64,000 bases of DNA, taken from positions 1-64,000 of the forward strand of contig DASUYB010000079.1 of NCBI GenBank assembly GCA_036377595.1. Direction: 5' to 3'. Of this stretch, positions 36,032-60,095 are shown one piece after another. Source of the stretch: Longimicrobium sp. GTDB lineage: Bacteria > Gemmatimonadota > Gemmatimonadetes > Longimicrobiales > Longimicrobiaceae. A program made the position numbers and the translations under genes. Numbering within the stretch: position 1 is the first letter of the stretch; every line of letters starts with the position of its first letter. The notes beneath the pieces were generated by a model. That model made no database searches. It was not told the origin of the DNA and saw only the letters and a list, made by a program, of their open reading frames with translations.

Positions 36032-57844
<21,813 letters not shown>

Positions 57845-58090
57845 AGACTGTTTCCCGTCGAAAATCGCCTAAGACGTGAACCTGTGGGGCCCTTGTGCCC
57901 CGCAGGATTCGTTGTCGTGCCAGCCCACGTGATTTCCCGACACTCGCTGATCGGCCCCGCCCGAGAGTGGAGACAGCCTCCCACATCACCGCCTCGATGA
58001 CTGAGGCGGGGGAGGCGGTCCGATTACGTCCGGCGGCCCAGCTTTTGGTCTGGAGGAATTGAACAAAGATGTCCAAAACGTAGGGAAATA

Positions 58091-58120
58091 ACGATAACGT
58101 GGGCGATTGCCTTGCGTCAA
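58091..58120 (-). promoter_or_regulatory. Candidate promoter for the NRPS operon
   Basis: On the minus strand TTGACG (58120-58115) is followed after 18 nt by TATCGT (58096-58091). This matches the sigma-70 boxes at 5/6 and 4/6 positions, and it reads toward NRPS1. It rests on pattern only. Confidence 0.3.
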
Positions 58121-58160
58121 CCGTATCCCGTCACGTTTAGCGGAGTTATTTTGCTCCCTT

Positions 58161-58177
58161 TCTGACTCCCTGTCAGA
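58161..58177. promoter_or_regulatory. Inverted repeat, possible operator
   Basis: TCTGAC-TCCCT-GTCAGA, 6-bp arms with a 5-nt spacer, about 40 bp upstream of the candidate minus-strand -35 box. Confidence 0.3.
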
Positions 58178-58232
58178 TAAGAGTTTGCGAAAAATAACGA
58201 CCCGCTTAAACCTGAGGAATGAATATATCGCT

Positions 58233-58260
58233 TTGACACAAAAGATGCGCATCTGATGTA
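58233..58260 (+). promoter_or_regulatory. TTGACA box with overlapping perfect 12-bp palindrome
   Basis: TTGACA at 58233-58238 reads toward the P450 genes. AGATGCGCATCT at 58243-58254 is a perfect palindrome lying where a spacer would be. The -10 position (around 58255-58261) is poor, so if this is a promoter it probably needs an activator. Confidence 0.3.
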
Positions 58261-58459
58261 CCGCTGCATTGACTCCGTTTGACTTCTATGACTTCCCTGT
58301 CGGACTGGAGCTTTTGCGAGGAGATGGGAGACTCGGCTATTCCTTTGAACAGCATGGAGTTACCACGATTTGCAGGTCAGGGGCTCCATGTGATCTCCAA
58401 CAATTCCCTCTGCATATCAACCCCGAAGGTGCGCATCGGATTGGATGGAACATGACGCG

Positions 58460-58633
58460 GGAGAGTCGTTCGTGTGCCGCGGCGACCAGAGCCGCTGCCG
58501 CGCGAAGGACAGCGGCAGGCCCGCCCCGGCCCGCGGACTCGATCGCCGGCAGCTCCGCCCGGCGCGCGCTCACCGTCACCGATCCTGGACTTGCCAGCTT
58601 CAAATAAATCCCGGCACTCGCGCGTTGCCGCAC
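58460..58633 (-). pseudogene. Relic of an NRPS N-terminus (C1 motif fragment)
   Basis: On the minus strand it reads VTVSARRAELPAIESAGRGG in one frame, then LPLSFARQRLW (the C1 motif of condensation domains) in the next frame, so a 1-nt shift separates them. Together they match the module 3 start, ELPPIERVDRGGRLPLSFAQQRLW in pattern. The first half also matches the present NRPS1 N-terminus (VTVSAVRAELPA). It looks like the remains of the deleted first half of the NRPS1 starter C domain, or of a duplicated gene start. Confidence 0.6.
58544..58581. repeat. 38-bp direct repeat, copy 2 (in the relic)
   Basis: 36 of 38 positions identical to 57767-57804, 777 bp apart in the same orientation. Confidence 0.8.
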
Positions 58634-58792
58634 GACCCTCGACCTTGGCGGATTATCCTGGCGGCGAACGCGCTTGCGCTCCTTCCGCGACCGGGCTTAT
58701 CCTCGAAAAGAGTCTGAAAGCAGGTGCCGTATGGGCCGGGTCCTCCCGCGCCCAGCGCGCGGACGCGATCCGCCTCCTTTCGCCGAACCGAC

Positions 58793-58796
58793 GGAG
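58793..58796 (+). promoter_or_regulatory. Shine-Dalgarno pointing to ATG 58804, the likely original P450 start
   Basis: GGAG lies 7 nt before ATG 58804. The frame from this ATG reads a P450-like N-terminus (GQFTVDLKGVCP) and then falls out of frame with the rest of the P450 near 58910, which suggests a 1-nt deletion. Confidence 0.6.
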
Positions 58797-58877
58797 CAGG
58801 ACGATGAGCACGCTGGTCGCCACCCGAGCCTTCGGGCGGATGGGGAACGGCCAGTTCACCGTAGACCTGAAGGGCGT

Positions 58878-60095
58878 GTGTCCAACCTCGATCATCCCGA
58901 TTGCCCGAGCATGGCCGCCATGGTGGGCGCCTACCAGGCTCCGCACGCGCTCTACGACCGGGCGAGAGCCCTGGACGGGATCACGTTCGACCCGCTCGGC
59001 AACTGCTGGCTCGTCACCGACCACCGGGCCGTCCGGAGCATCCTCGAGGACCGGCGGTTCACCTCCGACCTGCGCTTCGCGAGCGGGGGGAGGGCCCGGC
59101 CGGCCCGGCGGTCGTTCATCCAGGACGCGGTCGAGAAGCAGATCATCTTTTCGGACGGGGCGGACCAGCACGGCGCCCAGCGGGTGATCCTGCAGGAGTC
59201 GTCTCGCAAGATGCAGGAGCTGTCCGGCTGGATCCGGGAGCTCGCGGCCGGGCTGCTCCAGCCGCTGCGCGCACGGGGCGGGTTCGACCTGGTGGCCGAC
59301 TTTTCCCTGCCGTACGCGCTGCAGACCGTCTGCCGGGTGTTCGGCATCCCGGTGGACGACCCCGGCCGGGTGGCCGAGCTGGCGCGCTGGTCCTCCACCC
59401 AGGCGGACGTCACCAGCGGCTACCTGAACATCCGGATGCAGGAGATCATGCTGTTGGGCGACTTCTTCCGGAGGCTGGTCGCCGCGCGCAGGTCCTCGCC
59501 GTCCGACGACCTGGTCAGCGCGTTCCTCAAGGCGGGCACCTTCGAGCAGGACGAGGACCTCGTCGTCAACTGCATGGGGGCCTTCGCCGCCGGCAGGGTC
59601 ACCACGCAGAAGCTGATCGGAGACGGCGTGCCGATGCTGTTCCCGGAGTGGGCCGCCTGGCGGGAGATGGTGGCGGCGAACCCGGGGACCAGCCGGCGGC
59701 TGACCGAGGAGCTGCTGCGGATGGTGACGCCCACCCGCTATCTCGGGCGGCACGCCACCGAAGACGTGGACCTTTCGGCCGAGTGGGGCCCCGGACACCT
59801 GATCCGGACGGGGCAGAGGGTCGTCCTGTTCCTGGAGGCCGCCAACCGCGACCCCGCCCGCTTCCCCGACCCGCACGAGCTGCAGTGGGAGCGGCAGCCG
59901 AACCCGCACCTGGCGTTCGGCCACGGCGCGCATCGCTGCCCCGGGGCGAGCATCGCGCGCGTGGAGATCCAGACCGCCCTGGAGACGCTGCTCGCGACCT
60001 TCGAGACGCTCGGTCCGGATCCGTCCGCACCGCCTGTCTGGGATCCGAACCCCAACCTCGGCGGCTATCGTTCGTACCCGTGCCTGTGCAGCTGA
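58878..60095 (+). CDS. Cytochrome P450, apparently frameshifted at its N-terminus
   Basis: Heme-thiolate monooxygenase, probably oxidising the peptide or a residue bound to the assembly line. The open frame gives 405 residues from GTG 58878 (AAGGG 3 nt upstream). Heme motif FGHGAHRCPG has Cys354; the ExxR motif is EELLR. The I-helix reads AFAAGRVTTQ, so Val stands where the usual Asp/Glu of the acid-alcohol pair should be. The natural N-terminus probably lies in another frame: ATG 58804 with a good Shine-Dalgarno encodes GQFTVDLKGVCPTSIIPIAR, and a single base added near 58907-58912 would join it to MAAMVGAYQAPHALYDRA. So the gene is either slightly broken, wrongly sequenced, or translated by frameshift or from the internal GTG. 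It is divergent from NRPS1 and followed after 240 bp by a second P450; that gap shows no gene. Confidence 0.85.
   Translation: MSNLDHPDCPSMAAMVGAYQAPHALYDRARALDGITFDPLGNCWLVTDHRAVRSILEDRRFTSDLRFASGGRARPARRSFIQDAVEKQIIFSDGADQHGAQRVILQESSRKMQELSGWIRELAAGLLQPLRARGGFDLVADFSLPYALQTVCRVFGIPVDDPGRVAELARWSSTQADVTSGYLNIRMQEIMLLGDFFRRLVAARRSSPSDDLVSAFLKAGTFEQDEDLVVNCMGAFAAGRVTTQKLIGDGVPMLFPEWAAWREMVAANPGTSRRLTEELLRMVTPTRYLGRHATEDVDLSAEWGPGHLIRTGQRVVLFLEAANRDPARFPDPHELQWERQPNPHLAFGHGAHRCPGASIARVEIQTALETLLATFETLGPDPSAPPVWDPNPNLGGYRSYPCLCS

Follow-up and report, generated by a model that had tools for sequence, protein, structure and literature searches.

A decayed NRPS start that includes the front of a C domain lies upstream of a half-C starter module in Longimicrobium sp.

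Introduction

FmqA, which belongs to the fungal fmq system, carries a truncated condensation (C) domain at its front, before an anthranilate-loading A domain. Passages of PMC10212144 speak of a truncated and presumably inactive C domain (C*) in the fmq cluster and, along with it, of anthranilate. Initiation modules usually have no C domain, according to passages of PMC11546977 and PMC8949500, and the former also describes the engineered exchange unit XUC, composed as CAsub-A-PCP-CDsub. Natural exchange of bacterial NRPS gene parts is treated in passages of PMC8097286 (Mol Biol Evol 2021), where recombination is presented as a key driver. Here we describe a short relic of an NRPS start next to the gene NRPS1, in a window of 64,000 nucleotides of Longimicrobium sp. 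(contig DASUYB010000079.1 of assembly GCA_036377595.1), and compare it with NRPS starts of the same genome, the genus and the family. Among the titles and abstract openings listed in our literature searches, none names this locus.

Results

A decayed NRPS start upstream of NRPS1

The features on which the comparison is based are as follows.

36032-57844, minus strand: NRPS1 open reading frame, 7270 aa.
57762-57804, minus strand: stretch of 43 nt at the living start of NRPS1, which matches 58539-58581 at 93% identity.
58485-58581, minus strand: NRPS start relic, made of a VTVSA prefix, a PCP-C type linker and a C1 motif, with a broken frame.

Read on the minus strand from 58581 to 58485, the relic encodes VTVSARRAELPAIESAGRGG in one frame and LPLSFARQRLW in the next, and both the linker peptide and the motif one frame off had been spotted in the first-pass annotation. 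It lies 641-737 bp from the start codon of NRPS1 (57844), in agreement with the earlier figure of about 0.7 kb. The components keep their natural order: VTVSA, a prefix of the start type, comes first, then a linker of the carrier-to-condensation type (RRAELPAIES.AGRGG), and last C1. The repeat that had been claimed between fragment and current start was recovered as direct repeat D1, which is 43 nt long with 40/43 bases the same at a spacing of 777 (57762-57804 / 58539-58581). In a whole-genome search with 58400-58700 as the query, this pair reached E 4.8e-11, and the linker and C1 part (58568-58485) matched an intact C-domain start with E down to 1.2e-18. Among intact modules of this genome and of the genus, the closest linkers and C1 motifs were 81-86% identical to that part and the others down to 72%; the best matches to intact C-domain starts within this genome were at 81-85%. 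The first 17 bases of the relic, CGGTGACGGTGAGCGCG, are matched exactly in the NRPS1 start, and local alignments with internal linkers start only at 58569 or later. Over the 43 bases, the relic differs from the NRPS1 start at 3 positions and from the G005 start (of a congener) at 4, and the latter two differ from each other at 3, so the donor of the relic is not distinguishable among these starts.

Homology of the relic to NRPS genes does not extend beyond the W codon in C1. No C-domain signal was found past this point, the best of 38 real continuations scoring 21.5, which was equalled in 434/500 shuffles. The relic thus has a C1 motif preceded by a PCP-C linker, as expected of a condensation domain, and shows no continuation into the N-lobe and HHxxxDG. 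The extent first assigned to the fragment (58460-58633) was too wide, since NRPS homology covers 58485-58581 only; the start copy itself stands, and the wider claim of C-domain DNA beyond C1 fails. We conclude that 58485-58581 represents the decayed start of an NRPS gene together with the front of a C domain, and that it is likely without function. Its decay is not strong, as identity to intact C starts is up to 86%.

Two rival explanations were weighed against these results. An assembly error in this draft genome, which is in 208 contigs and rich in NRPS repeats, might have brought a C-domain start next to the promoter of NRPS1; but the whole-genome search found no exact copy of the relic elsewhere in the genome, its flanks have no second genome copy at E 0.001, and the relic carries its own base differences and a broken frame, all of which make such an error very improbable. 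A functional relic, be it a short reading frame in a leader or a site of regulation, whose likeness to NRPS starts is incidental, would suit its position between the promoter region and a divergent P450 gene. Against this, the likeness is far beyond chance, the frame is broken, and no relic-like match was found at E 1e-4 upstream of the three other starts of the same type described below, so that we consider such a function hardly credible. A search of plasmid records with 57700-59000 in distant mode gave no match at E 1e-5.

Two observations concern the surroundings of the relic. The adjoining stretch 58453-58484, CGCCGCGGCACACGAACG, recurs in the genus, with 30 nt at 90% identity in G002:C481 and 20/20 bases in G009:C2, and these matches begin at or beside the relic end. 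On the plus strand, 58804-58911 encodes an apparent N-terminal part of the divergent P450, MSTLVATRAFGRMGNGQFTVDLKG, in a frame different from that of the P450 body starting at 58911; judging from the reading frames, the gene may be frameshifted or later-starting. An open reading frame upstream of the G005 start, of the same length as the P450 of the window, was considered as its counterpart and rejected, as blastn returned only chance-size pieces.

The half-C start of NRPS1 and its relatives

The front of NRPS1 itself is organized differently from a complete C-domain start.

57050-57748, minus strand: half C domain of NRPS1, covering Pfam Condensation positions 192-454 of 456.
55265-57844, minus strand: starter module of NRPS1, about residues 1-860, with start prefix, half C, A and T; common to three other genes.

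Only the C-terminal lobe of the C domain is present. NRPS1 has no complete N-terminal C domain with HHxxxDG, as a starter C domain (Cs) would, and the C domain that immediately precedes its first A domain is incomplete, the arrangement of a truncated initiation C domain (C*). From the missing N-lobe, the half C domain is predicted to have no catalytic role, in which case NRPS1 would begin with the substrate, whatever it is, that is loaded by its first A domain.

With the first 50 residues as query and a threshold of E 1e-6, four half-C start genes were detected in 3 of the 21 family genomes, and no others. Besides NRPS1 they are G002:C463, G002:C616 and G005:C10, from two congeners (G002 and G005). 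The four share the start MDVLAGRxSSTS..VTVSxVRAELPA..QAEYW, of which G002:C616 lacks part of the prefix, and the C1 motif is absent from all of them. Over the first 290 residues, the three relatives are 75-78% identical to NRPS1. The half C domain evolves faster than the A domain, with dN/dS of 0.44-0.63 vs 0.14-0.40 (Nei-Gojobori, six pairs), both below 1. A half C domain also seems to stand at the front of two Streptomyces loci (L123 and L133), and the number of such starts elsewhere is a minimum, N-termini having been read in nine of 69 loci. Taken together, the half-C start is apparently older than the relic and common to congeners, not a local loss in NRPS1.

The starter substrate may also be unusual. 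The first A domain of NRPS1 (55505-57007) aligns with linear gramicidin synthetase A, SFSFHLTQ against SFSFDGSA, so that H stands for D, and FSFHLTQ is likewise present in the three related starter modules. We take that aspartate to be D235, which holds the alpha-amino group of the substrate; its replacement suggests that the starter unit of NRPS1 may be non-standard, that is, other than an ordinary alpha-amino acid. Just upstream of the G002:C463 NRPS, an SbnA-like PLP enzyme gene is located (L031 7475-8533; TIGR03945 E 4.3e-61, below the curated cut-off), which would make a diaminopropionate building block possible there.

The starter module is shared and the downstream modules are not

Residues 1-860 of the G002:C463 and G005 proteins share 81.5% and 81.6% identity, respectively, with the NRPS1 starter module, vs 53-54% with the next best module of the NRPS1 genome that was compared. 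In 50-residue bins up to residue 850, identity of NRPS1 was 70-94% with G002:C463 and 64-94% with G005, and from residue 850 to 1900 it was 28-80% and 34-70%, respectively. For G002:C616 it was 66-96% up to the contig end. We then compared the second modules of the congeners with those of NRPS1 and NRPS2 and with long frames from three C175 stretches, considering the best six matches. For the C2 domain of G005, identity was 80-82% with modules of NRPS2 and 79% with a late module of NRPS1, and the second module of NRPS1 was not among its best six matches. The C2 domain of G002:C463 was 67.7% identical to a C175 module vs 67.5% to the second NRPS1 module, and its A2 domain was closest to C175 modules (60%) among the best six matches. 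For G002:C463 and G005:C10, the two genes covered by this comparison, an orthologous starter is thus followed by non-orthologous modules; the contig of G002:C616 stops within module 1. These identity profiles show a loss of orthology with the congeners after module 1. Two observations weigh against this: aligned as DNA, both congeners stay collinear with the window through module 2 (58141-52115 at 78.8% and 57965-52191 at 77.0%), though protein identity in module 2 is lower, and the identity between G002:C463 and G005 is 48-92% inside module 1.

The DNA between the relic and NRPS1 is shared with a congener

Upstream of the NRPS1 start, the following features were delimited.

57845-58141, minus strand: conserved promoter-leader of the half-C start, from alignment with the upstream region of G002:C463.
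58091-58120, minus strand: promoter-like TTGACG-N18-TATCGT, with equal spacing in L031 (the G002:C463 locus); a consensus match only.
58242-58441, minus strand: segment of which L031 has only a much shorter version; the direct repeats 58242-58257 / 58426-58441 (88%) form its ends.
58426-58480, minus strand: outer edge of the conserved upstream block, matching L031 8610-8662 and adjoining the relic.

The region 57842-58141 is 72-73% identical to the DNA upstream of the G002:C463 gene, and 58141-57300, which includes coding DNA, is 77% identical to G002:C463. The gene-proximal leader is also common to G005:C10 (to 57965) and G002:C616 (to 57934). In 57800-58960, two promoter-like sites were found vs a shuffle mean of 0.3. 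Homology with L031 resumes at 58480-58426, with a score reached by 0/20000 shuffles and 0/20000 random window pieces outside the block, and the gap between the relic end and the start of this shared block is about 4 bases. On the evidence of these alignments, the DNA between the relic and NRPS1 is the native promoter-leader of the half-C start. The suggestion that new regulatory DNA had been placed between the pieces is not supported, because both 57842-58141 and 58426-58480 are shared with a congener.

The leader and the outer promoter region have further features of their own. At 57845-57970 (minus strand), a conserved leader with two CACGT-like boxes precedes the NRPS start, as it does in all four genes; in the window it contains a hairpin, CCTGCGGGGC...GCCCCACAGG. 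Leader folding was better than that of shuffles (z -2.68, 0/200), and a search of 57500-59200 against Rfam, up to E 5, matched no family. In the outer promoter region there are two pairs of direct repeats, 58167-58186 / 58294-58313 (spacing 127) and 58242-58257 / 58426-58441 (spacing 184), which suggest local duplication or insertion.

This conservation also bears on the history first proposed for the relic, in which short repeats recombined, the C domain of NRPS1 itself thereby lost its front, and the parts became separated by new regulatory DNA. The prefix, linker and C1 motif are indeed the front that such a loss would leave, in the correct order and on the correct strand, and the identification of the fragment as an NRPS start with a C-domain front holds. 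The supposition that NRPS1 lost this front locally does not, for the half-C start also occurs in three genes of two congeners and the relic is not simply the lost part of NRPS1. As both the half-C start and its promoter-leader are common to congeners, they predate the relic, unless the loss is far older than the relic's identity of up to 86% suggests, and C-domain DNA is absent past C1. We therefore regard a local loss as improbable.

A possible leader relic and the origin of the fragment

One further feature lies on the far side of the relic.

58583-58638, minus strand: possible NRPS leader relic, weak, in the same register as about 57912-57965.

The stretch 58638-58583 resembles two leaders, those of the window and of G005, in equal register. 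Both scores together were reached by random window pieces at a rate of 0.0019 (n=20000) and by base shuffles at 0.0001, and dinucleotide shuffles of a longer flank reached the single leader scores in 69/2000 and 21/2000 cases. The remaining two leaders gave no support for a leader relic at 58583-58638. We graded this feature as weak because a leader profile search gave E 99 at 58620-58584 window-wide and no match on the short stretch alone; its resemblance to the two leaders is suggestive of a leader remnant.

If it is one, a local tandem duplication of promoter, leader and start, whose upstream copy decayed to the relic, would leave a leader-like stretch in just this place and register (repeat D6). 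Such a duplication would also account for the 40/43 bases common to the relic and the NRPS1 start, and more direct repeats (D3 and D5) occur in the outer promoter region. However, the relic has a C1 motif and none of the four half-C starts does, so the duplicated gene would not have been today's start, and comparison of 58582-58700 with 57805-58141 and the leaders of the three relatives yielded a weak leader match only and no promoter copy. We judge a tandem duplication unlikely, though it is the strongest competitor of the history proposed below.

A gene with a full C domain and the relic prefix was sought among 30/74 own-genome matches and loci among L146-L172. No intact full-C start with a VTVSA prefix was present among the genus loci read. 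C1 lay at most 130 residues from an upstream stop in L044 and L062, which are both the relic itself, and in L053, L065 and L157. The last three were rejected as full-C relatives of the relic, as they lack VTVSA, the SLTVS of L053 being only superficially alike. The relic prefix was encountered elsewhere only in half-C starts, and in this respect a local duplicate fits equally well as an exchanged relative.

Discussion

Recombination, which the first-pass annotation had invoked, is likely the cause of the arrangement at this locus. We propose that the relic is the scar of a recombination that joined an older, shared starter unit to the start of another NRPS gene, a history to which we give an even chance. 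The older unit would have comprised promoter, leader, start codon, half C, A and T, in the form common to the congeners, and would either have been joined ahead of the gene that once began with the relic or have replaced that gene's front, with the break point directly after the C1 motif. As the living start and its promoter are shared across species and the relic is little decayed, the relic would be the start of another, full-C gene, presumably one from the start family of NRPS1 that still had its C-domain front. Afterwards, the relic would have lost its translation start and frame. We infer both the direction of this exchange and the identity of the relic as the former start of NRPS1 itself. 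More tentatively, and with odds that we place below even, promoter, leader RNA, half C, A and T may move between NRPS assembly lines of the genus as one piece, with the protein boundary between the C-domain halves, and the relic may be the scar of one such arrival.

If the scar reading is true, this would be a natural change of starter module in which the incoming module brought its own promoter and the remains of the former start still lie adjacent. It would also offer a guide to cut points in NRPS engineering, since a natural protein boundary between the C-domain halves is useful for choosing them.

In comparison with known systems, the relic most likely represents a familiar type of recombination scar; recombination of NRPS genes has been described before, and so have truncated C domains at initiation. 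As in the recombination treated in PMC8097286, NRPS parts would have been exchanged between assembly lines; here, however, the exchanged part would be the 5' end with its promoter-leader, and a dead start was left beside it, neither of which is treated in the cited passages of that paper. The C* of fmq and the half C domain of NRPS1 are both truncated C domains, to the extent that PMC10212144 describes the former, but that of NRPS1 is bacterial, consists of the C-terminal lobe only and is common to four genes. Set against the XUC unit as outlined in PMC11546977, the starter unit likewise has its 5' protein boundary between the two halves of a C domain, whereas at its 3' side the drop in identity falls near residues 850-950 (in 50-residue bins), around the T-C2 linker.
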